64,000 bases of DNA. Origin: Prostheceraeus crozeri. Lineage: Eukaryota > Platyhelminthes > Polycladida > Euryleptidae. Position numbers and translations under genes: made by a program. The notes below the pieces were generated by a model. It ran no database searches and was not told the origin of the DNA. It worked only from the letters and a program-made list of their open reading frames with translations. How positions within the stretch are numbered: the stretch's first letter is position 1; each line of letters begins with the position of its first letter. Shown piece by piece: positions 13,046-54,290 of this stretch. The stretch is from contig CAJQUW010011506.1 of NCBI GenBank assembly GCA_907163375.1, positions 310,001 to 374,000 of the forward strand, given 5' to 3'.

Positions 13046-14177
13046 CTGGAATAAAGATGAATAAGTTAATGGAGATGCAACATTGTTAAGGACGTGAATT
13101 GTCTACACTGCTTTACAAATATAGTACACACTGAAGGAGCCATTATACTTTGAAATATTTGATATATTACATCAATATATTTTTGACACTTCCACGAAAA
13201 ATGCATTTAGATATTAATGGCACATTACATTACATTTAAGTGACTTTCAAATTGTCTTATCGAAGATGAATTTTGAACTTGCAATAAATGCAGTACAAAA
13301 CTAACCTATAATACTTCAGGCTCTATGTGCATGTGCACTTGTGAACCATATTAATAATGAATGATTTCAGAACCAAATGATGTCAGCATTGGCAGTCCCA
13401 GATATGTTAAACAGCTTGTAAGACGAATCGGATCTCAAATAACAATTTTCCAACAGCCATGTTTGAATCTGTTTACAACTGTTTACAACAGTTTCTTGAA
13501 ACGATGCTGTGACGGCATCATACGGTGGACACGTTGACGACTGATTTGAGAATTGTGACTATTCTGAGCGTATAGTAGTGCAACTTGGGGCCTCACACTA
13601 TGGCATTAGCATGTCATGCATTTTTAGTTAAGACACTATTTTAGCAATTCGTTGGTTTATCAATAATTATAAGAAATAAGAGAAATTATGGTTAATTTTA
13701 TTCATGTCAGCAACCTGTCATCAGACGTCAACCGCAATCTTCTCTACGAGGATGCTTGACAGGAAAAACGAATAAAATATATACACCAAATGACAAATTT
13801 ACTTTATTAACCGGTTCATAAGTCAGCATTCCGACAAAGCAAATCCGGTCCGCAGTCCGCGTGTCAACGCGCCCTATTTCCAACACCGTCTGATCGCAAA
13901 AATTTACTGCTGTAGAAATTTTCATCGATCTTTTTTAAATGTCATGTTTTTCCATCTCAAAGTCTTCTTACTTTAAGAAGCGGAAGTAAATTTATAACCT
14001 CAGCGGTTATTGAGACATTTTATTTCACAACTGTGTCAGAAATGTCTCACTATTTTCAGAAAAATATAAATTCCTTTTTTGCTGTGTATTCAATCCATGT
14101 TCTCTTCTTTTAATACATTTTGCCAAAATTGTTTGATTCCAATTATTTGTGGTTGCGTAAATTCTCAAATAACTAAC
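13046..14177. other. Intron, nothing recognised
   Basis: No exon-like frame or repeat structure is visible. The frame at 13728-13925 has no recognisable content. Confidence 0.5.
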
Positions 14178-14501
14178 CGCAAGATCTAAGTGCTCCAAAG
14201 TCCATTCTTCAGTCTCAGCGATACGAGATAGCGATTCTATAGCGGCACTTTCGTTGATTGGATTTCTTCCAAGTAGTAAGATGGTCAAGGATTCATTTCC
14301 GGTCAATGCCTTGATGATTTCGATGAAACCTCGACTTGAAATTCGATTGCAAGTGAGATCAAGCTCACCAAGAGTCGAATTGGTTTTTAAGGCATCCGCC
14401 ATTGCAACTGCGCCTTCATCCTCAAACCCATTCCATGCCAATTTAATTCGTTTTAATCCGATGTTATCCTGCAATTCAATAGCAAGGACGCAATGCATGA
14501 T
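14178..14501 (-). CDS. LRRC74-like gene, main leucine-rich-repeat exon
   Basis: This 324-bp exon is 108 codons, phase 0 at both ends, with acceptor ATATTTCAG and donor GTTAGT. It holds successive ribonuclease-inhibitor-type leucine-rich repeats of about 28 residues: LKRIKLAWNGFEDEGA, LGELDLTCNRISSRGF, LTILLLGRNPINESA and LEHLDLA. These repeats form curved protein-binding solenoids in this family. The order and the hand-over to the EF-hand exon match LRRC74 proteins. The gene's cellular role cannot be read from the sequence. Confidence 0.9.
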
Positions 14502-17204
14502 CTGAAATATACAAACATGCAAAAGATAAAAGTCAATCTCTTGAATAGGAAGCTTAAATTCTTGCTTTTAATATAATTGGATACTATCATATTTTAGTTT
14601 CTATCAGTCTTCACATAATTTTCCTCTATTTTTTGTAATTTAATTTTGTAATCAACAAGTATTGAATCATTTTCACTTACCCTCGAAAGGACAAAGAGGC
14701 CCTCCATTGCAAACTACACACGCTCATTCTGACCAGATTCTTTTAACCCATGTTGTGGCAATCATGGAATCCTCGTTTTTAATAACCTTTTGGTCAATGC
14801 TCATGCCAATTTCAGTATTTATTGGTATTTTCTTCCTGTATTATTTCTGTACTAATTCTTTATCATTATATTATAGAGTTATCGCTTTCTCTGCGCTTAA
14901 CAATAATTGACTTATGACACTTTGCAATGGGTGATTCTAATTCACATTGTTCAGTGATCTCGACTGAGAGAAACAGATTACATTCTATCGCAGTCTACTA
15001 GTGTTCATGAACCTCGCACAAAGTTAAATTGACCTTCCGACTCGAACATTGTCTTTACACAGAGATCTGTCTTTATACATGCAACAATGCCTTATTTTCG
15101 ACTGAAAATTGAAAAATGTGCTAAACTGAAATTTGCAACTGAGATACCGCAAAATAGCGGAACATATGCTTGTCCAGAAAGCTGCACATAAACCGGCACT
15201 GTCCTGGCTATATAACCGGGACTTCTTGTCACGCCGTCCTAACTTAAGTGATAAAATGATGAATACCACATTTCAATTTCTATCAGTCTGCCCTTATCTT
15301 TCTTCCTGCCTTTTAATTGAATCAATGAACATTTTGAAAGAAAAACAGGAAATTCTCCGACGGGTATGCCCACAATTGAGTAATAAAAATATAGGACGAC
15401 TTTTCAGTTTGTTCACGCCTTTGTCATGCCCGGAAGGAATGAAAGACAAAACTTTACAAATGCAGAAGCCGATATCAAATCATCAAAGGCTCGGAACTAT
15501 ATTTGAGACTAAATAATGAAACTCACAAAGTTATAAGCCCACTACTACCAATGAAGTACGCTAATCTGAATGTCACAACAGTTATTCATAAGTTCACTTG
15601 AATTGAACTTCTTGACATGCTTGCACATGGCCTGTAAAATCAATCGTTTTGAAGATTCCGAACACCATGATGGATCATTTTCATTCAACCCCAAAATGAA
15701 AATTAGGTTGGCATTGTAAGTGGTTTCTCACGGCCGGATTTGAGGATCTGAGAAAATCGTGTTCATTTATCCTGGACTTAACCATTCTCTACATCTCTCC
15801 TATATAAATATGATTACAGATGTAGCCACTGATTTGTTAGATTACATTTTTTAATGATATAAATTAGGTCTCTCAAAAATATCACGGAAATTGCAATCCG
15901 CATAGAGCATTTCATCTCTTTAGGCGGGTGGAAAATTTTCCCTAATGATGGACCGCCGCAAAATCATGGGTCAATATTTTCCGAAATTCCCAATTTTCGG
16001 AAGCAGAAAATGTACCGTCGTTGACATTCTTCATTTAAAAATGGACACTTAATGAAGCTGCGATTTGAATAATCAACAAAATTTTGGTCCGGCATTCTTC
16101 TTTGAAAATTCCGTACCATTGAGTCTACAAACCGTTTGGACCTCGATTAGAACACAATTATCCAATGGGCATTGAATTATCCTTATTTGCTATCGAAAAG
16201 ACAACAGGAACTCGCTTCTTATGTCACCGTACCAAACTTTATTAATCTCACTCATTCCCAATGTTAGCAGCAGGACCGTGCATCGATTTTTGTAATCGTG
16301 AACGAGTCGGCCTTATGCCGCGAGTGTTAAAGATAGTTTCCTTTGGTGTTCTTGTTATCTCGAAATTTCTTTTGAGCTGCTCTGACAAACAGTTCAGTGC
16401 GCCTACTTTATGAACATTTTTTAACCAAATCAGAGTTGACTCTGTGTCTCTGGTCTACCATGTGCAAAAGTCTAGCGAACGCCTGCTCGAGAAGAAGATA
16501 CCGAATGACATCATCTCGTGCTGATGATTGCCGCTTGTTGTGACTGAAAAGACTCGAATAATTGTCGGCATTAATGACCTTTGGTCTTGAAGCTTTTACT
16601 AGTTCTGTCTTCTTGGCGTCTTCAGAAAGTATACAAGCATATTGAGGATTACCATAACATTAACTGGTTGTCATTGGGCTTTTCTTGCGTTGTTGTCAAT
16701 GTTAATCGATGCGAGAAGGACTCCAAAGTTACTTGAACTTCAAAAATAGCTTTTTGAAAATATCAGGTCCTTTGGTACGACAAAAATTACACCAATCAAC
16801 AAAAAAACCCGTTCAACACCCGACGTTTCATTCTGTGGAAAGGTGTTAGGGTGCTGGGCGACTGACATTTTCAAGAAACATTTTTTGTACTATTTTTTTT
16901 AATATTGCACCTTCAATTCTATGTAGGCTTACTTGCTGCTTGCATTTCTAGTTTTAACTCATTGTTATAACTGGAATGGGACCTGCTGACCTGCATTGAG
17001 TTAGTCATCAATTTGTAGCTATGGCCGTCGATCACATGACTGTAGTCCTCGAAATGCTCGCGCAAACATATTTATCACGTGGCTATATGCTAGTATACAT
17101 CTCCTGCCGACTTAGTTTACTTTTGATGTATCGGTAAACATTAATGTCTCTAAGTGTTGCTAATTATACCAATGACCGTTGAGGAGAGCATGGACAGAAA
17201 TTAC
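14502..17204. other. Intron, nothing recognised
   Basis: Short open frames at 14662-14910 and 15133-15516 show no domain or splice context. I see no transposon ends. Confidence 0.5.
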
Positions 17205-23578: not shown

Positions 23579-23584
23579 TCCCAC
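23579..23584. repeat. Target-site duplication, left copy (TCCCAC)
   Basis: These six bases directly before the AGTAGT terminus are repeated exactly at 44318-44323 after the right ACTACT terminus. They fix both boundaries to the base. Confidence 0.95.
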
Positions 23585-23935
23585 AGTAGTGAAAACTGTG
23601 CCCTACTTGCGACGGATAGGTACATGGATAGGTACATGTAAAGTTAAGTGTTATCAATAGGAACATGGATAGGTACATGGATAGGTACATGTATAATTTA
23701 GTTATCGATAGGCACATGGATAGGTACATGTATAATTCAGTGTTATGAATAAGAACTTGTATGAGATCTGTTTTACTGGATAGGTACATGTGTTTGGTAC
23801 ACTCAGTTGAGTACACTGTGTTTGGGAACGTCTATGATCGAACTTGTGTGGTTTGGTTCTGAGCACTTGGGTACGTACCGATAGACGTCCGTCGTTTGAT
23901 TTTGAATGGGTTTGCTCAATTGCGACTATTGTGAC
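23585..23935. repeat. Polinton left terminal inverted repeat
   Basis: 351 bp, nearly identical to the reverse complement of 43928-44317. The outer part begins AGTAGTGAAAACTGTGCCCT, followed by tandem copies of a 12-bp unit GGATAGGTACAT. The inner boundary is just after GCGACTATTGTGAC. Open frames read from this repeat are products of its periodicity, not genes. Confidence 0.95.
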
Positions 23936-24031
23936 TATTGCAACCATTGTAATCAAGATGACACATTGATTTTCCTTTTACGTAGACAAACTATGCTATA
24001 AATATGAGTTAGTTTTTTGGTGACATACATA

Positions 24032-24529
24032 ATGATGACTAGTATCCCAACGTCGTGGGTTGTCGCAAGAGACCTTGGATATTCGTTCAAAGCCATAGAA
24101 ACTGTAACAAATCTCAGTGAAAATATCAACGCTGGTGATTTAGTTGATCGACTAATGGATCTAGATGAGCATGCCATGAATCACAATTTGGATCGTAGGT
24201 GGATAGAGGATTTCTCCATGCTACACTGCAATGATAGTGAAATTAGGAGGATCAAATTGGAACGATATGGAAAGAAGGAGACATCTGACAGTGTTTTAAT
24301 AAAAAGTTCTCCCAATAAAAGTGACTTCAGAAGGAAATTAGAACAAGAGACATTTAAATTATTATGTGAACGGAACTGCGTTAAATGTTTTAAACAGGAA
24401 CGATCCCTTCTCTTTTTGCCATGTTCTCATAGCGCTATGTGTTCTACATGTTATGTACCCCTTGAAACTTCATCTTGTCCCCTTTGTGATGAAGAAATAT
24501 CTTCAACAGTCACTGTATATCGTGCATGA
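24032..24529 (+). CDS. UBA-like plus RING-finger protein, IAP-like
   Basis: 165 residues from the first ATG. The frame is open 15 bases further upstream, but only from a TTG. Residues 10-48 (VVARDLGYSFKAIETV...GDLVDRLMD) look like a ubiquitin-associated domain. Residues 116-152 form a C3HC4 RING with C116, C119, C131, H133, C137, C140, C149 and C152; the FLPCSH and CPLC boxes and the closing TVTVYRA match RING domains of inhibitor-of-apoptosis proteins. No BIR domain is present. The likely role is E3 ubiquitin ligase, possibly acting on host cell-death factors; this function is inference. It is the first gene inside the left terminal repeat, transcribed inward. Confidence 0.8.
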   Translation: MMTSIPTSWVVARDLGYSFKAIETVTNLSENINAGDLVDRLMDLDEHAMNHNLDRRWIEDFSMLHCNDSEIRRIKLERYGKKETSDSVLIKSSPNKSDFRRKLEQETFKLLCERNCVKCFKQERSLLFLPCSHSAMCSTCYVPLETSSCPLCDEEISSTVTVYRA

Positions 24530-25938: not shown

Positions 25939-26664
25939 ATGACTCAGAAAATGTATACAATCAGAGAGGAAGGTGACGCTTTTGAGCAAGATCTCTTGAA
26001 GCTTCGCCCGACACGAAAGGTGCAAGGGATTGGAAATACGTTCTACTTTCAAACCTTGAATTATGGTGATGATGGCTTTTATCTTCAAGTTCCATTCTTC
26101 CACAGTAATTGTATGTCTACATCAGGGTATAGCAATATGAGACAAATGCGAGTGACTTTTCCAAAATGGCAACAGGTGATTCTTAAAACTATTGACTCTT
26201 TCGCGAAAGAATGTATTGAGCTGCCTGAAAGTGCTCCCACTCATTGGAGAAAGGCATTAGATGAAGGAGTTGGTTATAAGGAATTGCCGGAATTCGATAC
26301 ACTGTTTTTAAAACTATCGGATCATTTTCAAGCATTCTATCTCTTTACAAACGCGATGGAATGTGAGGATCTCAAACGGGGCCGCTATATGGGCTTAGTG
26401 CACGTTACCGGACTTTATATTGGTTCACATGGTTCGACTGGTAAAGTCGCATCTTTACAAATGAAGGTTCTTCAACTAGTCTATGAACCACTACCAATTG
26501 ATAAATGTTTAATTAACATTGATAAGACTGCTTCAAGTGATGGGAAGGAAGAGAGTAAAAAGCGAGGGCGGAAATCTAAAGATGGGAATCCTAAATTGAA
26601 GTTGAAGCGCCAAGATGCTGACTTGAAAACTTTCTATAATCCTAATTGTGATGAGGAAACATAA
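25939..26664 (+). CDS. Conserved-type Polinton protein, possible DNA-binding
   Basis: 241 residues, with its own TATA box. The first 180 residues look like a folded domain rich in beta strands (FYFQTLNYGDDGFYLQVPFF, GRYMGLVHVTGLYIGSHGST). The last 40 are a basic tail with KKRGRKSKDGNPKLKLKR, which resembles a nuclear-localisation or AT-hook-like segment. Position before the ATPase and the strand pattern would suit an OB-fold or single-strand DNA-binding protein, but I cannot show a family match. AATAAA at about 26728 could serve as its poly(A) signal. Confidence 0.55.
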   Translation: MTQKMYTIREEGDAFEQDLLKLRPTRKVQGIGNTFYFQTLNYGDDGFYLQVPFFHSNCMSTSGYSNMRQMRVTFPKWQQVILKTIDSFAKECIELPESAPTHWRKALDEGVGYKELPEFDTLFLKLSDHFQAFYLFTNAMECEDLKRGRYMGLVHVTGLYIGSHGSTGKVASLQMKVLQLVYEPLPIDKCLINIDKTASSDGKEESKKRGRKSKDGNPKLKLKRQDADLKTFYNPNCDEET

Positions 26665-26815: not shown

Positions 26816-27451
26816 ATGACAGATTTTCGTCTATTCACTGATCGCACAATGTGTGTCGCTGGACCAAGTCAGTCCGGTAAAACTACATTTGTAACTGAAT
26901 TGCTACAATATAGAAATGAAATGTTTAACAAGGAAATTAAGAGAGTCAAATGGTATTATGGAATATTTCAACCACAACTACATTCTGCACTTCGCCAGAA
27001 AGGTTATGAGGTGAAGCAAGGGTTGCCATCAACTGAGGATATCAAAGCAGGTGACTTACTAGTATTAGATGATCTATTACGAGAAAGCAAATCTTCAAAG
27101 GATGTAACTGAAATGTTCATTCAAACTGCACATCATAGGGAAGCTTTTATTATCTACATCACCCAAAACATCTTCGATGGAGGGAAAGAGCAAAGAACTA
27201 GAAGTTTGAATACACATTATTTGGCAATATTTAAAAATCCAAGAGATAGCAGTCAGATACATCATCTCAGTAGACAGATATTACCTCAACAACCTAAAGT
27301 ACTTTCAAAAATATATGAAGATGTAACAAAGAAACCACATGGTTATCTATTTATTGATCTAACCCAGGAATGTCCGGAACGACTTCGATTTCGAACAAAT
27401 ATCATACCTAATTCCGCTGAACCAATGACAGTTTTCTCGGTTCACAGTTAG
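26816..27451 (+). CDS. ATP: Genome-packaging ATPase (A32/FtsK-HerA type)
   Basis: 211 residues. Walker A is GPSQSGKT at residues 16-23 and Walker B is LLVLDDL at 80-86. A sensor-like IYITQN follows near residue 133, with arginines in EQRTRS that could act as an arginine finger. The family pumps viral DNA into preformed capsids. It is a core Polinton gene and a marker that the element can form, or once formed, particles. The frame is intact and of normal length. Confidence 0.92.
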   Translation: MTDFRLFTDRTMCVAGPSQSGKTTFVTELLQYRNEMFNKEIKRVKWYYGIFQPQLHSALRQKGYEVKQGLPSTEDIKAGDLLVLDDLLRESKSSKDVTEMFIQTAHHREAFIIYITQNIFDGGKEQRTRSLNTHYLAIFKNPRDSSQIHHLSRQILPQQPKVLSKIYEDVTKKPHGYLFIDLTQECPERLRFRTNIIPNSAEPMTVFSVHS

Positions 27452-28175: not shown

Positions 28176-28502
28176 ATGTCGTTACAAAAATTTTGCTGTT
28201 GTTTGAAATCTGCGCTCGAAGGCAAAGGAGAAGAGGGCATAGAGGTTGATATCAATTGTGTTAGCAGTTGCTGTGCGAGTAATACGCGTGCAAATCAGAA
28301 CAAAGACGATGAGTACAGCAGTGAAACTCAGAAAGATTTATTACGACTTAAATCATCCCGCAAGTTTCAGTCGTCCGGAGGTTCTAGCTCGTGCAGCAGG
28401 TGTGGGAATAGAGAAAGTCAAGAAGTGGTTGAGGAGTCAACCGACTTACACTCTTCACAAAAATGCGAGAAAGCGGTTTCCAACAAGAAAATATGTTGTT
28501 AA
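28176..28502 (+). CDS. Cysteine-rich overlapping frame upstream of integrase (doubtful)
   Basis: 108 residues from an ATG 133 bases before the integrase ATG and in a different frame. The N-terminal part (MSLQKFCCCLKSALEG) and VDINCVSSCCASN are outside or barely overlap the integrase. The later part overlaps it fully and becomes Ser/Gln-rich, as shadow frames do. It could be a small cysteine-rich protein, an upstream frame that lowers integrase translation, or nothing. Confidence 0.3.
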   Translation: MSLQKFCCCLKSALEGKGEEGIEVDINCVSSCCASNTRANQNKDDEYSSETQKDLLRLKSSRKFQSSGGSSSCSRCGNRESQEVVEESTDLHSSQKCEKAVSNKKICC

Positions 28503-29397
28503 CAATATAGATAGTCAATGGCAAGCGGACTTGGCTGACATGCAACAGATATCACAGTACAATGATGGCTATAAATACATCTTAACCGTAATAGATATTT
28601 TATCTCGCTATGCTTGGGCACGTGCGCTGAAATCTAAACGAGGACCAGAAGTTGAAGCGGCTTTTCAGAGCATTTTCGATGAGGGGCGTGTTCCGCAAAG
28701 AATACAGACCGATCAAGGGAAGGAATTCGAAAACTCTCATGTTCGAAGTCTCCTTAAAAGTCATAATGTGGAATTGTTTAGTGTCAAAAGTGCTTATAAA
28801 GCTGCCATGGTTGAGAGGTTCAATCGCACACTGAAGACAAAAATATGGCGCTATTTCACTGCAAAAAATACACATGTTTGGGTAGGTGAGCTGCAGAAAT
28901 TTGTTAAGAATTACAATGAAAGCTACCATCGAATCATTAAGATGAAACCAGTTGATGTTACCCCAGATAATGCGATGGATGTATGGCTTCGATTGTATGA
29001 TAAGAAAGCGAAAAACATTTCCAATGAAAAGAAAATAAATGTTGGTGATAGAGTTCGGATTTCAAAGGTTAAGTCTACATTTGAGAAGGGGTATCTACCT
29101 AATTGGACTGAAGAAGAGTTTTTTGTGGATGAAGTAAATACAAAATTTAGACCCACCATGTATAAATTAATAGATTACCATGGCAATCCAATTGAAGGAA
29201 AATTTTACTCTTATGAATTGCAAGTAGTAGACAGAAGTGAAGAGGTGTATATGATTGATAAAATAATTAGGAGGAAAGGTCATGGCAATCAAAGGAAATA
29301 TCTAGTTAAATGGAAAGGATATCCTGATTCATTCAATAGCTGGATAACGCACCAGGATCTACAAAATGTCGAGATGGGAGACACTCGTAACTTTTAA
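28309..29397 (+). CDS. INT: Retroviral-type DDE integrase with C-terminal chromodomain
   Basis: 362 residues from the ATG at 28309; the frame upstream lacks an ATG. Residues 1-60 hold the usual Polinton integrase N-terminus (LRKIYYDLNHPASF). The catalytic triad is D74 (QADLADM), D135 (QTDQGKEF) and E169 (AAMVERFNRT), with 33 residues between the last two. The final ~50 residues (MIDKIIRRKG...KYLVKWKGY...SWITHQDL) are a chromodomain, which in related integrases guides insertion by binding modified histones. It inserts the element and makes the 6-bp duplication. The frame is intact. Confidence 0.95.
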   Translation: MSTAVKLRKIYYDLNHPASFSRPEVLARAAGVGIEKVKKWLRSQPTYTLHKNARKRFPTRKYVVNNIDSQWQADLADMQQISQYNDGYKYILTVIDILSRYAWARALKSKRGPEVEAAFQSIFDEGRVPQRIQTDQGKEFENSHVRSLLKSHNVELFSVKSAYKAAMVERFNRTLKTKIWRYFTAKNTHVWVGELQKFVKNYNESYHRIIKMKPVDVTPDNAMDVWLRLYDKKAKNISNEKKINVGDRVRISKVKSTFEKGYLPNWTEEEFFVDEVNTKFRPTMYKLIDYHGNPIEGKFYSYELQVVDRSEEVYMIDKIIRRKGHGNQRKYLVKWKGYPDSFNSWITHQDLQNVEMGDTRNF

Positions 29398-31551: not shown

Positions 31552-32835
31552 ATGCAGAGTATCAATTCGGCTTTGTGTTTCTTCGATTCTCCCCCTCATC
31601 AGACAGACATCATCTCCTCAACAATTGTAGACATAGTCCCCACAACAAATATCGATGGTAACCAGCAGCCTATTCAGTTTGATATACCTGCCAATCCTCA
31701 AGATTATATTGACTGTCAATCCATTGATTTAGAGTTGTGTATACAAATTAAGAAGACTGATGGTACAAATATCGATTCATCCAAGGATAAAGTGGGATTA
31801 GCAAATCTTCCTATTGCCAGTCTGTTCTCAGATGTGTATCTAATATTGAATGACAAACAGATTGAAGGAGGGGATCGAGCATATCCATATGGAGCATATA
31901 TACATACAATGACTCAATTTCAAAAGCAAGCTAAACAGTCACACTTGCAAGTTTCTGGGTGGTATGATGATCAGCAAGGGAAATTTGATGATGTCTCAAA
32001 TACAGGGTTGAAAAGACGAATGGATCTAACAGCGGATTCAAAGGAATTATACTTGAAAGGACCCGTCTATCTTGATTTCCTTCGTCAATCTAGATATCTG
32101 CTATCACAGGTTAAAATGCAAATAAAATTTATTCGTGCAAATCCTGAGTTCGCGTTAATGGCTTTTGGAGCTACAAACTATCAAGTCAACATAAGTAATG
32201 CTGTGCTCAATGTAAGGCGAGTAACAATGAACCCGTCAGTCATCAACGAGCATGCGACAGGATTGAGGAAAAACAATGCAATATATCCAGTTAATTACAG
32301 TGTGTTGACAAACTTCACAATTGGTGCGGGATCATCCTCACATGCCTACCCAAATCTTTTTCCCACTGCAATGCCAAAGGCGGTGTATATCACATTTGTG
32401 GAAAATGAGGCATTCATTGGTGCTTTTGAAAAGAATCCATTCAATTTCCAACACTTTAATGTTAGCAAACTAGCACTCTATCAGGATGGGAAATTTGTAT
32501 CTTGCAAAGCATATGAGCCTAATTTCAAAGATGGCAAATTCGCACGTGAATATGGTTCTATTTTCACCGCCCTCAACATGTTTAATACAGACGATTCAAA
32601 TGGAATTACAATGGATATGTACAAGAATGGCTACTTCTTCATTATGTACAACCTCACAGCAGATGCAGATCTAGGTGGTGAAAGCGTAGGAGTTACAAAG
32701 CCTGGAAATCTACGACTGGAGGTATCATTTGAGTCACCTTTGAAGAAAACAATTACTTGTCTCATTTATGCTATCTATGATAGCAAAGTTGAGATAACAA
32801 GAATGAGAGACGTGACTGTCAGCTATCAGAGATGA
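31552..32835 (+). CDS. MCP: Double-jelly-roll major capsid protein (hexon-like)
   Basis: 427 residues. The N-terminal region has QPIQFDIPANPQDYIDCQSI, then LPIASLFSDVYLILNDKQIE and YPYGAYIHTMTQF. This is the recognisable core of the Polinton capsid protein, often labelled F54H12.2-like in invertebrate genomes. In this family two jelly-roll barrels form pseudo-hexameric capsomers. The frame is intact and of normal length. Its stop overlaps the start of the protease gene (ATGA at 32832-32835). Confidence 0.9.
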   Translation: MQSINSALCFFDSPPHQTDIISSTIVDIVPTTNIDGNQQPIQFDIPANPQDYIDCQSIDLELCIQIKKTDGTNIDSSKDKVGLANLPIASLFSDVYLILNDKQIEGGDRAYPYGAYIHTMTQFQKQAKQSHLQVSGWYDDQQGKFDDVSNTGLKRRMDLTADSKELYLKGPVYLDFLRQSRYLLSQVKMQIKFIRANPEFALMAFGATNYQVNISNAVLNVRRVTMNPSVINEHATGLRKNNAIYPVNYSVLTNFTIGAGSSSHAYPNLFPTAMPKAVYITFVENEAFIGAFEKNPFNFQHFNVSKLALYQDGKFVSCKAYEPNFKDGKFAREYGSIFTALNMFNTDDSNGITMDMYKNGYFFIMYNLTADADLGGESVGVTKPGNLRLEVSFESPLKKTITCLIYAIYDSKVEITRMRDVTVSYQR

Positions 32836-33296
32836 GTAACTTAAGCAACATAGAAATCTTGAGGAAAATGAGGAAAGCTCATCCCTACTCCAAGACAATA
32901 TTTCTCAATGTCTTTTCTAGAGATAATTTACCTGATTCAATTCCTTTCTATCCTTGTTCACTTATCATCAATACGGATACCAACAATCTTCCCGGAAAAC
33001 ATTGGATTGCTGTATACATCAATCGTTATAAAGTTGCCGAATATTTTGACTCTCTTAATCAACCTTGTTTACATGATATCGCATTATGGATGAACAGGTT
33101 CTCCTGGACTGTTAGGAAAGTGACATCGTTCCCACTTCAAAGTAATACATCTCTAATGTGCGGTGGCTATGTACTCTATTTTGTCAACGAGAGACCATTG
33201 AAAAATAACTGTAAAAGTGCTTTAGAACTATTTTCAAAAAACTGTGATAAAAATGATGTAATTCTTACTAAATATGTTGAAACAGTTTTGAAATAA
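32832..33296 (+). CDS. PRO: Adenain-like cysteine protease (virion maturation)
   Basis: 154 residues. H57 lies in GKHWIAVYIN, the acid is D73 in EYFDS, the oxyanion glutamine is Q103 in PLQSN, and the nucleophile is C110 in MCGGYVLYF. This order (His, Asp/Glu, Gln, Cys) is that of adenovirus protease and the Ulp1-like clan. It should cut capsid and core precursors at glycine-rich sites. It starts inside the stop of the capsid gene. AATAAA at 33292-33297 overlaps its own stop codon and probably ends the rightward transcripts. Confidence 0.9.
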   Translation: MSNLSNIEILRKMRKAHPYSKTIFLNVFSRDNLPDSIPFYPCSLIINTDTNNLPGKHWIAVYINRYKVAEYFDSLNQPCLHDIALWMNRFSWTVRKVTSFPLQSNTSLMCGGYVLYFVNERPLKNNCKSALELFSKNCDKNDVILTKYVETVLK

Positions 33297-33444: not shown

Positions 33445-34014
33445 CTACAATTTGGTTTTCATGAAACATTTTTTCAAATCACATATGATGGGAGGCACAT
33501 CACTTATGTCTTTAATGCCGGTTATCACAATCTTTCCATTATGGAACACATGAACATGATATGGATGCCAGTTAGGCAATTGAGCTGCTGGAAATAGCTC
33601 CACTTCATAAGTTAGATTATGTGATGATGTAACTTTACGGAAATCATAGTGATAGTGTAATTCACATAACACGGTCATTGTCTTCACTTTCCAATCAGAT
33701 AATGAATCACCAAGTAAATGTTCCAAAGTTAAGTGTAGATATGAGAGATCACCCTCCATGACCCTTCCAATACATTGGATTGTTCCATTTGGAAAGAATA
33801 GGATAGTGAGAGATCTATCCTTCCTCTGAATCCTCCATGTTAACATTGAGGGTCTTCCAAGATGTAAGCTCGTTGTCGGCTTCAATTTGCGTTTTATCAG
33901 TAACCATTGTTTTCGGTTGGGTATATTCCTCTCGATCTCTTGTAGATTGAGTTTTGACTTTGCTTTTGTAGTTAACATCCGATTTACAACTTCCAACCGT
34001 TTGATGTCCTCCAT
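33445..34014 (-). CDS. TBP-like protein (TATA-binding protein fold, two repeats)
   Basis: 189 residues from an ATG. The first 65 residues are a basic linker. The rest looks like the saddle fold of TATA-binding protein as two repeats. Repeat 1 has MLTWRIQRKDRSLTILFFPN followed by GTIQCIGRVMEG. Repeat 2 has YEVELFPAAQL, then YHVHVFHNGKIVITGIKD and a closing helix. The patterns (strand, F-x-N/S-G-K/T-I-x-x-T/I-G, and the ELFP turn) match both halves of eukaryotic TBP, but the sequence is very diverged and the DNA-intercalating phenylalanines are not all clear. It may direct transcription of the element. It overlaps the PC4-like gene by 200 bases in another frame. Confidence 0.65.
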   Translation of the reverse strand: MEDIKRLEVVNRMLTTKAKSKLNLQEIERNIPNRKQWLLIKRKLKPTTSLHLGRPSMLTWRIQRKDRSLTILFFPNGTIQCIGRVMEGDLSYLHLTLEHLLGDSLSDWKVKTMTVLCELHYHYDFRKVTSSHNLTYEVELFPAAQLPNWHPYHVHVFHNGKIVITGIKDISDVPPIICDLKKCFMKTKL

Positions 34015-34375
34015 CTTTAATGAATGACGTTATCTGTGGTAGTATCTCCCTTGTAAAGGTTTCCCATGTGACGTCACTGAAACGAAAAAATCGATATTCA
34101 ACATCTTCACGTTTTGGTGAACAGACGTATAGTTTGACTGATGAATCACACTTTATCCATACCTTGTCATCGAGAGGAATCTTGATCCGAGTCTTATGGT
34201 TGTCAATGAGATCCGCAAAGTCTTTCAGTGAAGGTAATGAGTCAATACTAATGCAAACGCCACGATGTTTTCGATCACTATTTGCTATTGAATGACGAAA
34301 TGCTATTCTTTTAGAATTTGTTATGTGAACGTTTTGAACGTCACTAAGTTTCCATGTTCTAATGTAATGAGGCAT
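33815..34375 (-). CDS. PC4-like protein, overlapping the TBP-like gene
   Basis: 186 residues from the first ATG (MPHYIRTWKLSD); the frame upstream opens only with TTG. Residues 1-55 (KRIAFRHSIANSDRKHRGVCI, then LPSLKDFADLIDNHKT) resemble the strands and closing helix of the PC4/p15 single-strand DNA-binding coactivator. Residues 60-110 (VKLYVCSP, VEYRFFRFSDVTWETF, ILPQI) may be a second copy. The last 70 residues are a polar linker reading over the start of the TBP-like gene. If a frameshift or splice joined the two, the product would be a PC4-TBP fusion. I cannot decide between fusion and overlap. Confidence 0.4.
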   Translation of the reverse strand: MPHYIRTWKLSDVQNVHITNSKRIAFRHSIANSDRKHRGVCISIDSLPSLKDFADLIDNHKTRIKIPLDDKVWIKCDSSVKLYVCSPKREDVEYRFFRFSDVTWETFTREILPQITSFIKDGGHQTVGSCKSDVNYKSKVKTQSTRDREEYTQPKTMVTDKTQIEADNELTSWKTLNVNMEDSEEG

Positions 34376-34713
34376 GTTCCGAAAGCTATGTTTCAAATTT
34401 AGGTTTAATGTTTGCCTAAAGTTTGTTATTTTATTAGCTCAACATATCGGAATGATGTTGAGTACAAATTCTTCACATATTCATTCACATTAGGACTACC
34501 TATTTATTAGTAATCATTTCTACATATCGGAAAGATGTAGAAATTTCAATTTTAGTAAGACTACTTATGTATTAGTAAGTGTTGCTACATGTCGGAAGAT
34601 GCAGCAATCGCAAGATCTATTACAAGTGGAATATTATATTGTTTTTATTTAGACTTATTCTACATCACCTGTGACAGGAAGGCATCTCCTTCTCTTCGAC
34701 GGTGGGGGAAGAC
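34376..34713. promoter_or_regulatory. Three related stem-loops between polB and the PC4/TBP-like genes
   Basis: Hairpin 1 has stem 34438-34445/34455-34462, hairpin 2 has 34516-34525/34535-34544, and hairpin 3 has 34582-34590/34599-34607. Their loops are ATCGGAATG, ATCGGAAAG and GTCGGAAG, so TCGGAA is constant. Stem bases change in pairs between copies (for example T-A in hairpin 2 is G-C in hairpin 3). Hairpins 2 and 3 lie in a 65-bp tandem duplication. They are 3' of polB and in the leader or promoter of the next leftward gene. Confidence 0.8.
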
Positions 34714-35705
34714 CTAGGCTGTAGTTTCCATATGGTAATGATAAATTTTTATCCAGCCAACAGCCTTATCCTCCCAAAGTGAAAGACCTCGCTTCCTAAA
34801 TGATTTTGTGCTAACTATGTGATTTTTTGAATTTATAATTGTCATATCTTCAGTTGTATCATTCTCACTATAATAGACACTCCTATAGTCATCATGTTTC
34901 AATTTTTTAACTGCTGCTCTCTGAATTCCTTTTGCACGTTTGATGCTATGATTCGTAGAGTCTAGATATTTCATGGAATACATTTTCGGTTTTAGTAGGA
35001 TCATTTCCTCAAGCAACTTTCCAGCACACTCATCCTTAAAACAACCTAATCTAGCTTTGTTTGTAGTTGAGTATAGTCGGTGATGACTGTCATAGTTTGA
35101 AGAGTCAAACTTTTCGCCGAAGTATAGAAGTATATCTTCCAGACGGACGGATGGTGATGTGTATAAACATAGGAAGAAACTGTCGGTATCACCTCCACAA
35201 AGCCGCGTTCTATTTATCAGTGGACACCCTTTTAGATCATTGTAATATAATTGATACATTTCCAACTTACTATAGTCAAGTACTGCTTGACCAACATATA
35301 TTAATTTATTTAAAACTATTGAAGGTTTGTACATTTCCATACCAACCAGATCTTCATCAAATATTTTGTGTTGAACATAGAGAGGATGATTTGACAATTT
35401 CAGTAAATGTTTCTCATTGTTGACTAGTTTAAATTTTTTCCTTCTCCTTACATTTTCCATTGTTTTACCATATAAAGAATTATTTTTCAATTTGTAGAAT
35501 GACTTTTCGAAGTCAGTGTTTGATTGAGCCCTCTTTTGAGAGTTCATATCAATGTCTGTTTTTAACCAAGGCTTTTGTGTGAATTTTATGCCACTATGAA
35601 TCTTCTTGATTCTCATGCCCATGCTCAAGTAAAATTTTAAAATTGAATAGTGGACTACATAATTTTCCCTATCAAATTGATGGAGCAGAAGTTTCTTGAT
35701 AGAAG
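34714..35705 (-). pseudogene. PolB: DNA polymerase B, C-terminal part (after a frameshift)
   Basis: This minus-strand frame carries the rest of the polymerase domain. Motif B is KLKNNSLYGKTMENV and motif C is GGDTDSFFLCLY with both catalytic aspartates, followed by the thumb region (KPKMYSMKYL, AKGIQRAAVKKL). It has no proper start. It continues the frame at 35655-38510 after a one-base shift located at about 35690-35705, in a short run of T/C. All catalytic motifs are preserved on both sides, so the shift is recent or a sequencing error. Confidence 0.9.
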
Positions 35706-38510
35706 AAAATGTGTATTTGGTCTTACTTTTTCATATAGATTTTTCATATAGTGTGAAAACATTCTCTTTTCAATCATCTGCATTTCTGGAGCTAATGGGA
35801 AATCGGCAGTGTCATCATGAATGGCTGCAGGATACTCTAAATCTAAATCAAAAATGTAGCCGATTTCACCATCATCATCTATATTTTGAACATTTTCTTC
35901 ATTTAAAAAATTATCTAATTCACTTTCATTCAACCATTTGAAATTTGACTGGGGTAGATTTCTACTGAGTGGAGAACCATAAAGGTTATTAACATCTAAG
36001 TAGGTCAAATGTCGACTTTCATGTGTATTATTTCCTAATTCCTCAATGCGTGCACGCGCTCGGTGAATGTTGGTGAAAGTCATACCCCCTCTAATTCCTC
36101 GTTCAAATAGATTGTACATATTTTCATCTTGTATGTAGTGTGGGGGATCATTGGAAGAGAAATTTAGTGCTGAGGTAAAGCTAAGATGTGGGAGACTGAC
36201 AAAATGTACAGGGTCGACTTCATCCTCACGTTGACTCAATGCTCTAAGCACTTCAAATATGTCTGCCAACAATAAAACATCTAACTTCAGATATGCCAGC
36301 ATGTAATCACCAAATGTGCTACAATCAAATTCAATCCACGCCTTGTTAGCGTGTTCATATTCACTATCGGAACAGTGCTCACGAGTAAGATCATTATAGA
36401 ATTCAAATTGTGGTGGTAGACAGTCTTCCGTCAACGTGTTTAAGTTTTTGAAGTATGAATATGGAAACACTCCCTTCTGATATAAAACATTATCACTTAA
36501 TTGTGGAAATTCTACCCTCAATGTCTCTACATGCTCATACGTTTGCAAGCCCTTGGCTAATTCACTCAAGGATGCACTTAGAAATTGATATGAGTCTAAG
36601 AATTTTAGTTTAAAATATACTGTCTTCCCTTTGTATTCATTTACAGGGACACTGGCGGATAAAGTTATATATTTTTCAGCAGTTGCTGCTACAACATCTA
36701 ATTTCCAAGACTTCATTCTTCCAATCGCTTTATAGCAAACGATGTGGCTATCATAATTTTTAAAATTGTGGAAAAATATGGGCAGCTCCCGTCTGTTAAG
36801 TCTTAACCGGAGATTGCATTTCCTACATAATGTTTGCCTATATCGTCCGGTGATATGATCATGATCACGAACTTTTATGACTTCATCGCTGAATTTTGAT
36901 TTACATTTGTTGCAACATTCTGCATTCTCGTGGCGTGCTTTTTCATCCGCTGACAGTGACATTGGCTGCCTAGTTGTTGCACATTGGTTGTCAAATAAGT
37001 CTTGGGCTACAGTTTCTAAGTGGTGCAAGAAACTAATAATGCAATTTTCTCCCTCAAAGAGGTAATACTTGTTTTCAAATTTTGATTGAAGGGCATTATG
37101 CCAGACATGATAAGCTCCAATAGCCGCAGGTTTATGTATTTTATTATCAATGTAGCACTCTATATCTGCATAAATTACTAAAGGAGGACTTAGTTGATAT
37201 TCCATGCTACTTGTTAGTACTTTTAGATCCGATGGCATTTTTTCTATTTGTGCTTTTCCTCGAATACAAAACTGGAAGTGTCGTTCTAGTGTTCTTTTAT
37301 ATGTGAATGACTGAGTGCATCTTTCGCAGAAGTATTTATGTCTTTTTAAAGTTCTCCTATACAATCTTGACAGCTTTGGAATTCCACAATAGTGTGCTGC
37401 TCCATTGTTTAGAATTAGCAAAATATTAACCGTTTGCCTACCAGTAAAGTTACTATTATAACGAACACCTTTGAGTCCATTTTCATAAAAGTGAATGTTA
37501 ATTTTAATATCATTATTTTTCTCAAATTTTGGAATATCTTTAATTGATACTGGTGTGGAAATGCCTTCCATATTTAGCTCAGATGTCCACTCACTATATG
37601 ATTTTACTTCATTCCTTGAATAAGGTACTTCATTATAATGCAATATTGATAAAACTGCATATAGGAAGCAATCATTTGCATTTGAATTAACATTAATGAC
37701 AGCTTTAGAGTTTTTTAACTTCTTTGGTAGAGGAAATGATTGTCCACCTGACAGTATTGGACTTGTTATTACATTGAACTCTATATTTTGTACATCATCT
37801 ATAATCCAATTGCTACCCTTTTTTGTGGAGGCTTCAATATGATTTATTAGACTATTTAGATGATCCTGAAACCAAGCATCATAGTCATAAATATAGTTTG
37901 AGGATGATGAGGTAAAGTGTGCGAGAAAAGTTTCTTCTTCTTGAGGATTAGAACGGACATAACGAATTTGTGCAATCAGACGACCGCGCAATTGATAGCT
38001 CCTTAGTAAGTCAGACACTAAATTCCCTAACATGGAACGCATGCTTTCTAAGAATGATGTTATGTCCACAGTAGGTGTTGTTGGCGTGATATCATACACA
38101 CGTGCATGGCCATTGAGTGCGCTTTCACTGAGACTAACAGTTCCATAGTTATTATGCATATTCATCTCACTATTTGTGTTATGTACATTCATATGCTGTC
38201 GAAATCTACTTATAGAGTTATACGTTTTGCCACACCGAGAGCAGTATTGCATAAAGTTTTGTATGTTAGTTGAAGCGCTGGTTGTTGGCTTAGAAGTAGA
38301 TCTATTTTGATTATTTGAATTTGACTCTGTTATGCTATCATTCGGTTTATTATTGCATACAAGTTTATGCCTCTTAAGATTATCCATCCTATTCGTCTTA
38401 TATGGACACTTGCTACATTGATATGTTTTTCCTAACTTAAAAAATTTCTCATGTCGTTGCAAATTGCCTATGAGAGTGAACACTTTTCCACACTTGGTAC
38501 AGACAACCAT
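35655..38510 (-). pseudogene. PolB: Protein-primed DNA polymerase B, N-terminal and exonuclease part
   Basis: 951 codons from an ATG with a TATA box upstream. C2H2-like fingers lie at residues 4-20, 32-53 and 90-110, with another at 395-415. Residues 270-380 (NDCF with C281, AHYC with H373) resemble a papain/OTU-like fold. Exonuclease motifs are YADIE (447-451), FHNFKNYDSH (580-589) and YLKLDVLLLAD (740-750). RDHDHITGRYR (548-558) with flanking cysteines 533, 536, 562 and 565 is an endonuclease VII-like zinc insert. Motif A is YLDVNNLYG (837-845). It replicates the element by protein priming in this family. The frame breaks near residue 936. Confidence 0.93.
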
Positions 38511-42813: not shown

Positions 42814-43275
42814 CTAAATGTCATCAAGGTAAGGAAAGGGTACAAGTTTTTTCAAGTCCACTTGCACATGGATCCTGGTCTTCTTGGGCGCACAGGGACA
42901 GCGACGTGGTGTGTCAAGGTCGATGACCGAAAATTCGAGAGCGGTTGTTAGGTTCCGCTCGTTCGGCTCCATCCTCATGAACACCCGTTTGGTGTGGTAT
43001 TTTTTCGGGGCGTTCTTGACTTTGACCGTGACCCGTCCATAAAGTGGCGTTCGCATGGACTTCTTATTCATGTGACGCATCGTCTCGATTGATACGTCAC
43101 TATCTTCATCACTCGAGTAGTCGGGCGATGCAGGGGCTTGGGTGAACACCACCGGCTCGTTTGGTGTTGTCGATCGCTCCATCGGAGATTGGGGAGGTGT
43201 ATTGGTACGTTCCACTGGCGAAGTGGTACGATCAGCAGTCCCGTTCTCAACTGCGGCTTTCTGTTTGCGATCCAT
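42814..43275 (-). CDS. Right-arm accessory protein, unknown function
   Basis: 153 residues from an ATG. The first 80 residues are Ser/Thr/Pro-rich and disordered (TTSPVERTNTPPQSPMERST) with repeated S/T-P sites and an acidic patch DYSSDEDSDVSIE. The second half is basic, beta-rich and more compact (RVTVKVKNAPKKYHTKRVFM, CPCAPKKTRIHVQVDLKKL). I recognise no family. It has its own TATA box (43358-43364) and shares a 224-bp divergent promoter region with the gene at 43500. Clusters of S/T-P suggest regulation by cyclin- or MAP-type kinases, which is inference. Confidence 0.65.
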   Translation of the reverse strand: MDRKQKAAVENGTADRTTSPVERTNTPPQSPMERSTTPNEPVVFTQAPASPDYSSDEDSDVSIETMRHMNKKSMRTPLYGRVTVKVKNAPKKYHTKRVFMRMEPNERNLTTALEFSVIDLDTPRRCPCAPKKTRIHVQVDLKKLVPFPYLDDI

Positions 43276-43357
43276 TATGACTTGTAGATTTAAAATAATT
43301 GTAACTTGTAAACGTGAGGATTAGAACCTTTGATAAGAATTGGTACAAACCTCGGAC

Positions 43358-43443
43358 TTATATACTTTTTAAACAAAGGAAATCCTAACAGCCAATCAGA
43401 GAGGTACCGAACTTCCCTAAAGAATATATATAACTATATAAAG
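43358..43443. promoter_or_regulatory. Divergent promoter with two TATA boxes
   Basis: TATATAA on the minus strand (43358-43364) serves the gene at 42814-43275. TATATAAAG on the plus strand (43435-43443) serves the gene at 43500. A CCAAT box (CCAATCAG, about 43392-43399) lies between them. Confidence 0.75.
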
Positions 43444-43499
43444 GATGTCATTGTTCCAAACTGTTAAGTACTTATCCTCAACGTTCCATAACAAGAAGC

Positions 43500-43790
43500 A
43501 TGTCCTCAAAACCACTATTTTATTTTCAAAATGACAGCCAAGTCATTATGGGAGGTCAGTTGGACATGACCATGCATCTGTCTTGCGGCTGCAAAGTGGC
43601 CCTGTGGAAGACCTTGACTGTGTCAGCACTTCAAAGGCGGAATGGACTACCAGTGAAGTGTCCGGTACACGAGTGCGATCATGACTTTAGCAACAATAAA
43701 ACATTTCATGAATGGTGTGATGACTTCCTAAAGATCATGGAGTCGCCTGAGGGACGTGATCTACACCCATCATTTATTTTTCATGCTTAA
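43500..43790 (+). CDS. Small zinc-binding (treble-clef-like) protein
   Basis: 96 residues from an ATG about 57 bases after its TATA box. A possible zinc site is formed by HLSCGCKV (H46, C49, C51) and CPVHECDHDF (C74, H77, C79, H81), spaced like the second half of RING or IBR-type fingers. A tryptophan-containing helix follows. It is transcribed outward, toward the right terminal repeat, mirroring the RING gene that is just inside the left repeat. Function unknown; I would compare it with RING-like or B-box proteins. Confidence 0.6.
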   Translation: MSSKPLFYFQNDSQVIMGGQLDMTMHLSCGCKVALWKTLTVSALQRRNGLPVKCPVHECDHDFSNNKTFHEWCDDFLKIMESPEGRDLHPSFIFHA

Positions 43791-43927
43791 ATTAAACTTA
43801 CATTGTAAATCTCTTGTCTTTTTCACTTTAAACATAGTTCTGGAATTGGTTTTCTTATTGGGGAGCAACTAAATCATAACTGCACATTAAAGTTTCACAT
43901 CTAAATAGTGCTACATTTAAAATAATT

Positions 43928-44317
43928 GTCACAATAGTCGCAATTGAGCAAACCCATTCAAAATCAAACAACGGACGTCTATCGGTACGTACCCAAGTGC
44001 TCAGAACCAAACCACACAAGTTCGATCATAGACGTTCCCAAACACAGTGTACTCAACTGAGTGTACCAAACACATGTACCTATCCAGTAAAACAGATCTC
44101 ATACAAGTTCCTATTCATAACACCGAATTATACATGTACCTATCCATGTGCCTATCGATAACTAAATTATACATGTACCTATCCATGTACCTATCCATGT
44201 ACCTATCGATAACTAAATTATACATGTACCTATCCATGTACCTATCCATGTTCCTATTGATAACACTAAACTTTACATGTACCTATCCGTCGCAAGTAGG
44301 GCACAGTTTTTACTACT
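43928..44317. repeat. Polinton right terminal inverted repeat
   Basis: 390 bp. It differs from the left repeat by copy number: one extra 51-bp unit (CCTATCC/CATGTA repeats with GATAACTAAATTAT) and one 12-bp unit fewer, which accounts for the 39-bp difference. The terminus reads TTTTTACTACT, against TTTTCACTACT in the complement of the left end. Confidence 0.95.
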
Positions 44318-44323
44318 TCCCAC
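44318..44323. repeat. Target-site duplication, right copy (TCCCAC)
   Basis: Exact repeat of 23579-23584, produced by staggered integrase cutting on insertion. Confidence 0.95.
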
Positions 44324-51708: not shown

Positions 51709-54290
51709 ACGTCACTGCCTTTAGAGACAACTTAAAAGTTGGACATACACATGTACATTCACTTATGTCATATAAATCAATGTCATACGCAAGAACGAGG
51801 AAAGGTTTATGAGGAACAGATTGCAAATCATCAAAGGAAAGAATTATAAAAAGTGGTACAAAAGGAATAAATGCCCTTGACCTTCGCTGACTTTGGGAAA
51901 GGCATGACTCAAGGTGCCCAGAATAGTAAAGTCTTCTAGGAACCAAATGATGCAGAATGCTATCACGATGTAGCATGTCACTAAACACTCTGCATGCCCT
52001 CTGAAGACGGCGTGCTTCAAGTTCGCCGAGACACATTCCAGAGCACTCGTTGCCGCAGATGATGCGGTGGCAGAGACGTTGCAGTTTTTCAATACGAATA
52101 TTGTTTTCACATTAAAGCCAACAAAAAGTGGTGAATTGTATTCCACAATAGAACGAATAAATGCCCCGAAAACACGTATTAGATCAGCTTTACAAAAGCC
52201 TGCAGCCTTCAAACGACGGAGCGCATAGACTCTTCTGCTAGCGCTTTTACATATATATTCGATGTGCTCATCCCATCTACATGAATCACTAAAGATTACT
52301 CCCAGAAATTTGATGGAAGTACAAAACGACCTGTCCGAAATTGGAACAGGTAAACCACGACGAATATACATGCATTTGGTCTTATCTGTATTCAAACATA
52401 GTCCATGATTCCGGCTCCAATTGCTTATGTTGTCTTCCTCGATTGAAATAATAAGATTAATGTCTGTGTCTGAATATACCGGGATTGCCACAAGAATGTC
52501 ATCTGCGTACTTCACCATCAAAGCGCCATCCACACTGTGTTTTAGCGAACCCATATGTGCAGAGAATAACTGCGGTGCGAGAACGGATCCCTGGGGCACG
52601 CCAGAAGACATGTTACGAAGAGAACTGAACACATTATCTTGGAGACTTATGCGATATCGACGATCTCTCAAAAATGACATTATCCACCTGACAAAGTCAT
52701 GCGGAAGGGCGCCATCAATCAAGGTTTCGACGAGAGAACGGTGATTTAAACTGTCAAAAGCTTGCTTGAGGTCGAAAGATAGCATGATAACCCCTCTCAA
52801 GCCAATAGCATCCACCTGAGAGGTGACAAAATCATGTACAGCTATTTGGGCATGCAATGTACTGGCATTACGCTTGTACGCAAACTGATCACTCCCCGAT
52901 AGTCTTTGTAGTGAGTCGTATACAGATTGCAAAATGATGCCCTCCAAAATCTTAGAGAGAGTTGGGAGCAACGATATGGGGCGAAAATTAGCATCATCAA
53001 ATTTACCATTCTTAGGGATAGGCACGATGTTAGCAGTCTTCCAGATGATAGGCACATGTCCTGTTGAGATGGATATATTGAATATATGTGAAGCAGGATT
53101 GCACAATACATGGGCAGCCTCGCGGATGAGTCTGGCCGACAAAAAGTCACATCCCGGGGATTTCGATTTCAGGTTCAGCATTTTGCTGTAAATGTTGTCG
53201 GGCGAAGCATCAGGGCACCAATGACAAGAAGTCTCAGCAGATTGAAGAGACAGACTAGAATAATCACTTACAGGGGAAAAATGGGACTCGTAGGATGACG
53301 CGAACGATTCAGCTGCAAGAGAAGGAGATTCATGGCCCTTGATCATTGCTTCAAATAGCACAGAAGACTTAGATTTCAAGTCGCACATCTCGCGAACGAT
53401 AGTCCAAATGTTCTTATTGTCTCTTGTACAGTTGGAAACCCACGAACGCTTCGCTTTGACGATCTCAACTTTAATTTTCTCCTTATAATTAGAGTACATG
53501 GTCAAATCACCAGAGCGAAAAGCATTATAGCGCAAATTAACAAGACTTTTGAGGACCGGTGTCATCCACGCTTTGTCTCTCGATCACATTTCAACATAGG
53601 TCTGTGGAAGAGTGTTCATTGCAACTTCAACAAATTCATAGAATAACGTGCATTTGTCGTCTAAACTCAAGTTGGGATCGTAGATACTGTGCTAAGGAGC
53701 ACACTGAAGACTCTGAACGAAATTATCCATGTTACTTTTCCGGAAATCGTAGACTTTCTTTACGTGAGTAACATGATAAGAAGCGTTAACTGGCTTCATA
53801 AGAACAGCCAAATGATCCGAAAGACCAAACGCAGGACAAGTGAAAGCAGAACTGTACTTGGTTTTCAGAAGAGGATCTACAAAGATCTTATCCAAGATGG
53901 CAGTACCTCGAGTGGGAGTAATGACCATTTGAAAAAGTCCGAAGTCATTCATAAATAGGTCACGCGGGAAAGAGTCAAAGTTGCCGGCTACAATCATGTG
54001 TGATGATGGATAGACTTCAAGAAAGTATTGCAAGCAGTTTTGCAGAAATGTGCGAATATCTATTGAGTCTGCGCATCTCATGTTTGGAGGGATGTAGACT
54101 ATAATGCAACAGATGAGGGGCTCCTTCATGATGAAGGAAACATATTCTAAAGATGGTGGACAGTCTCGGAAATTCACAGACGTAAAAGATAAATAGTTGC
54201 GGATGTAAACGCACACACTACCTCCTTTCTTGCCATTATTCCTGTCATAAAGAAAGGGCTGACAATAATCACATTGGGCTATCACATTGG
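51709..54290 (-). pseudogene. Non-LTR retrotransposon (LINE) with endonuclease and RT, 5'-truncated
   Basis: The minus strand reads, from 54285, an AP-type endonuclease (GGSVCVYIRN, IVAGNFDSF, PTRGTAILDKI, GLSDHLAVL). The RT follows in the same frame (53565-52090) with ANIVPIPKNGKFDDANFRPI, MSFDLKQAFDSLNH, SGVPQGSVLAPQLF and VKYADDILVAIP. Two in-frame stops lie between endonuclease and RT (53692-53694 and about 53586). A frameshift near 52090 moves the RT tail (RRLQRACRVFSDML, RRSRAFIPF) to another frame. The start of the endonuclease is missing. The style is CR1/Jockey-like but I cannot assign a clade. Few lesions, so inactivation is fairly recent. Confidence 0.88.

Follow-up and report, generated by a model that had tools for sequence, protein, structure and literature searches.

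A Polinton gene for a divergent but complete TBP saddle, conserved across a group of related elements

The window, i.e., the whole stretch of 64,000 nucleotides of Prostheceraeus crozeri DNA that was analysed, contains an element of 20,733 bp (23585-44317), which is bounded by terminal inverted repeats (TIRs) and flanked on both sides by TCCCAC. The inverted repeats, the 6-bp duplication, and an rve integrase with a chromodomain identify the element as a Polinton. Polintons have been proposed as the ancestors of many eukaryotic DNA viruses, and to our knowledge little is known about gene control in them. The features of the element are listed in Table 1. Degenerate GGATAGGTACATG repeats were observed in the TIRs (23585-23790 and 44100-44317), where they are visible as several overlapping inverted pairs.

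Table 1. Features of the Polinton in the window
Feature	Position	Strand	Evidence and remarks
Left target-site duplication copy, TCCCAC (6 bp)	23579..23584	.	Identical to 44318-44323
Left terminal inverted repeat region	23585..23939	+	Begins AGTAGTG; arms of 290 nt at 98%, plus outer arms
RING-finger ORF	24017..24529	+	First ATG 24032; PF13920 1.2e-10; TATAAAT upstream
ORF g241, candidate minor capsid/penton by position	25939..26664	+	23-29% in 3 distant copies; TATATAAGG upstream
Packaging-type ATPase ORF	26816..27451	+	AAA_14 6.7e-5 (weak, below the Pfam cut-off); Pox_A32 0.054
Integrase with chromodomain	28246..29397	+	rve 3.5e-13; Chromo 1.3e-9
Putative major capsid protein (MCP)	31552..32835	+	161 relatives at E<=1e-5, the best 120 listed; synteny in distant copies
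Cysteine protease ORF, adenain/Ulp1-like by position	32832..33296	+	Peptidase_C48 0.065 (weak); syntenic in 20/20 distant loci
TBP-like gene	33445..34014	minus	PF00352 1.9e-12; predicted structure; 189 aa
ORF g193, conserved	33815..34396	minus	Overlaps the TBP start by 200 nt in a different frame; homologues in L057/L059/L061
polB-type gene	34714..38510	minus	Two ORFs (35655-38510, 34714-35628), interrupted here; motifs by eye
Right terminal inverted repeat region	43924..44317	minus	Inverted-repeat arms; ends read
Right target-site duplication copy, TCCCAC	44318..44323	.	Identical to the left copy

The names of the capsid, protease, and polymerase genes rest on the Polinton gene order and on familiar motifs, not on database matches. 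The MCP, which we take to be such from its place in that order, matched nothing in Pfam or in the PDB by sequence, the latter being searched with the capsid profile. The ATPase ORF, which had no sequence match in the PDB, is 49-54% identical in 3 distant copies. In the polB-type gene, the motifs were recognised by eye; neither broken piece matched Pfam DNA_pol_B and the C-terminal piece had no match in the PDB, while the matched pieces of the gene are 46-60% identical in 3 distant copies. Its N-terminal piece scored 5.3e-9 for C2H2 zinc fingers and also showed an Endonuclease VII-like match (2.1e-6). Among the 18 element ORFs scanned, neither an RNA polymerase nor a TFIIB was recognised. Outside the element, reverse-transcriptase ORFs were seen on the minus strand at 51844-53565 (RVT_1, 8.8e-29) and 9451-9936 (3.8e-4, below the curated cut-off), and a leucine-rich-repeat ORF lies at 14025-14522 on the minus strand (LRR_6, 2.2e-8).

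The first-pass annotation had placed a TBP-like gene at 33445-34014, in a Polinton. Its coordinates were exact, the coding strand is the minus strand (the plus strand is stop-rich there), and the two quoted motifs are both found in the product, ILFFPNGTIQCIG in repeat 1 and YEVELFP...HVHVFHNGKIVITG in repeat 2. The proposed TBP fold of the product was borne out by the profile matches and by the predicted structure, and neither a missing TBP fold nor a better match to an unrelated fold, which had been named in advance as refuting outcomes, was found. The Pfam TBP family (PF00352) matched the window protein with 47.3 bits against a cut-off of 22.9, and it matched 104 of 105 relatives at E<=0.001. 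When the window protein was searched against the PDB by phmmer (E<=10), 35 of the 36 distinct sequences retrieved were TBPs or TBP fusions, the best at 1.3e-4; one of these 35 bears only the name ECU04_1440. A profile of the 105 relatives retrieved the same 35 sequences at 2.2e-24 to 9e-18, followed by SMG1 kinases at 0.42 and worse. In that profile, the TBP of M. jannaschii was aligned to positions 1-172 of 176.

The predicted structure of the TBP-like protein is a two-repeat TBP saddle. The model used was built on the alignment of the 105 sequences; an earlier one, with 17 sequences, was of poor quality (pLDDT 66). The relatives were collected with profiles seeded by the TBP-like family itself, as the best 120 of 195 matches, and the alignment (A3) holds 105 of the 121 proteins P0001-P0121, the other 16, mostly short pieces plus some longer rows, being omitted by choice and without a fixed rule. 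Subsets of 92 rows and of 40 rows (the tree) were used elsewhere. The 189-residue protein aligns with the TBP core over its full length and has no N-terminal Pol II-binding domain of the kind found in the herpesvirus vTBP. A chance ORF or an unrelated alpha/beta fold is thus ruled out by the PF00352 match and the comparison with the TBP saddle. The gene product is a divergent but complete TBP saddle.

To describe the contact surfaces, we used the residue roles of cellular TBP, in which F99, F116, F190, and F207 kink the DNA, E186, E188, and L189 contact TFIIB, and K133, K138, and K145 contact TFIIA. The equivalents of F116, F190, and F207 are phenylalanine in 105/105 relatives. The F99 position is proline in 84 of the 85 relatives with data, within a 'GRP' motif, so that three of the four phenylalanines of a canonical TATA-box TBP are present, and membership of that subclass is not claimed. 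T124 is lost in 105/105 and T215 is kept in 100/105. N69 is kept in all 69 relatives with data, and N159 in 78/105, with T in the window protein. The E-x-E-L motif for the TFIIB contact is present (E186 in 102/105, E188 in 99/105 with D in 6, L189 in 102/105). The TFIIA-contact lysines are not: K133 is E in 63/105, K138 is E in 68/105, and K145 is mixed, the window protein having S, T, and D at the three positions. Judged from these kept and changed residues, the C-terminal half seems suited to DNA and TFIIB binding. The N-terminal half is altered, and the contact with TFIIA has probably been lost. Since F99 is replaced by P and T124 is lost, the binding of a canonical TATA box may be weak; the altered half of the saddle is the one that would read the 3' part of a TATA box.

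The host has its own canonical TBP (C9306), with 79% identity to yeast TBP in residues 5-124 and 86% in residues 121-157. It also has a TLF-like gene (C3829), which is 39% identical to yeast TBP; the Polinton-type TBP matches are 23-26% identical to yeast TBP. TLF genes are known from bilaterian animals, which makes a bilaterian host probable. The match of the host TLF/TRF2-like exon (G000:C3829:151570-151929) includes one TGA. In a tree of 46 rows, 40 Polinton-like TBPs were split from 6 canonical ones at 100/100. Three of the former come from this genome and 37 from the database, and for most of these 37 a Polinton context is inferred; the canonical ones were the host TBP, the host TLF-like protein, and those of yeast, E. 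cuniculi, and two archaea. Giant-virus TBPs were compared by structure, outside the tree. The ancestry of the Polinton TBP is therefore shown to be separate from that of the host TBP.

That the TBP-like protein is encoded by a Polinton, as first annotated, is confirmed in the window element as well as in those relatives of it that were examined. Its place beside polB was right only in part: in the order MCP-protease> <TBP-<g193 ... <polB, the TBP-like gene is near polB, and one gene lies between them. In the 2.05-Gb assembly, the gene was open in 150/150 scored matches, the window copy included, all 99-100% identical; of the 10,663 first-look candidates, at most 150 were scored, so that the copy counts are lower bounds. 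With a query from a distant branch (P0039), another kind of match was obtained, and 143 of the 150 scored were open, at 40-47% identity to P0039. At all 20 loci reached via TBP, MCP-PRO> was followed by a convergent <TBP, and g193 was detected at 12 of them. In 3 distant loci that were read further, the order from ATPase to protease was unchanged and polB lay beyond TBP. At L057, L059, and L061, a g534-like sequence in two ORFs was seen between g193 and polB rather than beside the integrase.

The linkage was also approached from the capsid gene, in a survey that covers the Polintons whose capsid genes were close enough to be found. Of 96 listed loci, 14 were examined, and at each of these 14 the TBP is encoded no more than about 1.5 kb from the capsid gene; in a small search set, the E-values of the matches did not exceed 3.4e-26. 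The 14 loci represent four lineages (11 near copies of one, and one each of three); one TBP copy was frame-broken and one match was partial. Outside this genome, the linkage rests on contigs of equal size in both match lists, i.e., the best 120 of 195 TBP matches and the best 120 of 161 capsid matches. The two lists share 9 contigs of exactly equal size. Eight of these are >=5 kb; at 400 other offsets, the mean number was 0.24 and the maximum 2. One equal-size pair, P0003/P0159 (3433 bp, no common source), looks like chance, and 28 of the 36 listed TBP contigs of >=5 kb were without a partner among the best 120 of 161 capsid matches. A search of viral contigs for TBP, capsid, and integrase relatives found none, and a search of genome contigs gave only one match, to 54 residues, in a bacterium. 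Across a group of related Polintons, the TBP-like gene has been conserved. Since the related elements examined carry their own TBP in the same place, it is probable that such elements regulate some of their gene expression themselves.

The copies of the window element were compared for sequence variation. In 27 other copies, the TBP gene had no indels and 10 variable sites in 570; nine of the ten variable codons were synonymous only, and the tenth was the loss of the stop in one copy. The corresponding numbers were 26 in 465 for the protease, 46 in 832 for the capsid end, 21 in 361 for g193 alone, 61 in 887 for the polB piece, and 17 in 148 and 12 in 338 for spacers. The window copy of TBP has T147P, found in 0/27 of the others.

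The element had been said to contain several strong TATA boxes, and indeed TATATAAG occurs four times in it and never in the remaining 43,267 bp of the window. These four boxes precede g208, g241, polB, and g153. No TATA[AT]A[AT] was found within 160 bp before the ATPase gene, g226, INT, g534, g160, MCP, PRO, TBP, or g193 in the window. In this the window TBP gene is unlike that of the distant loci. Of 20 such loci, 17 were resolved, and 15 of these have TATAAAAGG at 43 bp upstream of the ATG of the TBP gene; these loci are near copies of each other, and the count is not one of independent cases. Because the half of the saddle that would read the 3' part of a TATA box is changed, it is doubtful that the TATA boxes of the element are targets of the Polinton TBP; they may serve the host TBP instead. 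Near the right TIR, the divergent ORFs 42814-43275 (minus) and 43500-43790 (plus) share a short region (43275-43500) with several TATATAA boxes. No late-promoter motif was evident before the capsid-module genes: AAGCAAA and ATGCAAA, found post hoc, are not commoner there than in the rest of the window, and they are listed, along with AGCTAATA, as leads only. At L056-L061, ATGCAAA(T), which resembles the octamer motif, stands just upstream of the ATPase, g160, and g534-like genes, with no overall enrichment.

TBPs of viruses as such are already known, from herpesviruses and giant viruses. With cellular TBP (PF00352; archaeal and eukaryotic), the Polinton protein shares the whole-length two-repeat saddle, the equivalents of F116, F190, F207, N69, and T215, and the E-x-E-L-F-P stirrup. 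However, the two are 17-22% identical in structural alignments and fall on opposite sides of the tree, and the Polinton TBP has P for F99, no T124, and mostly acidic residues at K133/K138. The herpesvirus vTBP is described as a TBP-like protein of a DNA virus dependent on the Pol II of its host, acting at late promoters in which TATT replaces TATA (PMC7498053). The beta- and gammaherpesvirus proteins (KSHV ORF24, EBV BcRF1) thus have in common with the Polinton protein that they are TBP-like, and the use of host Pol II would be a further likeness. In ORF24, the TBP-like part lies in mid-protein and an N-terminal domain binds Pol II, whereas the Polinton protein is the saddle alone. Giant-virus (Nucleocytoviricota) TBPs were among the best viral matches by structure; a protein of Heterosigma akashiwo virus, for instance, scored 9.5e-12 with a TMq of 0.63. 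They are 6-20% identical to the Polinton TBP in the 43 rows at E<=0.001. According to PMC11464507, RNA polymerase subunits and a TFIIB are encoded by Megavirus itself; neither was recognised in the 18 Polinton ORFs scanned.

The window element shares terminal inverted repeats, a 6-bp duplication, and an integrase with Polintons/Mavericks and adintoviruses, as well as putative polB-, capsid-, and protease-type genes. The conserved Polinton genes named in the accessible part of PMC4028283 are those for polymerase, integrase, ATPase, cysteine protease, and uncharacterised proteins, with no TBP among them, and algal mirusvirus-like elements are noted in PMC10675990 to have sporadic TATA-binding proteins. 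A Polinton TBP is likewise not described in the available portions of PMC8097293, PMC4028283, PMC10328495, PMC11071296, PMC11071308, PMC11464507, PMC12220804, PMC12638062, and PMC13037468. A partial literature search thus found no report of a TBP in Polintons, and an earlier notice is possible. As far as found, what is new here is that a distinct TBP clade is conserved in elements of another class. Given such a TBP, elements as small as 20 kb, in which no RNA polymerase is recognised, would possess a factor for promoter selection. The Polinton TBP may serve as an annotation marker for such elements and as a route to their early and late promoters. As a natural variant in which one kinking phenylalanine is missing and the TFIIA contact probably lost, it can also help to define the requirements of a TBP; moreover, it adds a TBP clade to the question of the origin of giant-virus TBPs.

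We consider it likely that this divergent but complete saddle binds and bends the DNA at the element's own promoters and passes them to the TFIIB and RNA polymerase II of the host, TFIIA being dispensed with. From the residues kept and changed, we infer DNA binding, TFIIB recruitment, and the loss of the TFIIA contact. Host Pol II would be used because no RNA polymerase or TFIIB was recognised among the element ORFs scanned, and the protein would let the element choose its own promoters. More speculatively, the host TBP would first transcribe the genes with TATA boxes, e.g., polB (and also the TBP-like gene in the case of the other lineage examined), early; the TBP-like protein would then drive a late class, the TATA-less capsid module. 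The distribution of the TATA boxes fits such a scheme, in which a TBP-like protein made early by way of the host TBP later reads other promoters, like the herpesvirus vTBP. A still wider reading is tentative: the TBP could be an ancestral core gene of a major Polinton branch that switches host Pol II from early TATA-box genes to a separate class of late capsid promoters unread by the host TBP, in an early/late programme of the virus type, with g193 as a possible partner in a small initiation module.

The TBP fold could alternatively be reused for replication, packaging, or the choice of integration sites, e.g., in steering new copies to certain host promoters. The gene does stay with the capsid and replication genes; the conserved TFIIB-contact residues point to transcription instead, and we regard such a reuse as unlikely. 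It is also rather improbable that the protein is a mimic directed at the host, which competes with the host TBP or sequesters TFIIB or other factors and thereby damps host transcription. A mimic would agree with a TFIIB-contact stirrup that has been preserved alongside changes to the TFIIA surface and to half of the surface for DNA, but a pure decoy for protein partners would have no need of the three DNA-kinking phenylalanines, which are invariant in the relatives. The recent capture of a host TBP/TRF gene by one element, or a chance ORF, has practically no chance of being right, for although the host has both a TBP and a TLF-like gene, capture is contradicted by the 100/100 split of the 40 Polinton-like from the 6 canonical rows, and by several distinct lineages bearing the gene at the same place.

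The neighbouring g193 matched no Pfam family and nothing convincing in the PDB. By eye it had resembled a PC4/Sub1-like coactivator; there was no Pfam PC4 match, the PDB gave only an unrelated match at 0.35, and hhalign against one PC4 sequence gave P 0.064, with 0.092 for the best of 20 shuffles, so the PC4 idea is unsupported. The homologues at L057, L059, and L061 are of a longer form and also overlap TBP, by about 329 nt in L057. In that lineage, the longer homologue is accompanied upstream by a paralogue of 118 aa (L057 225-893 and 915-1271, minus strand), and the two are 42-50% identical to each other.
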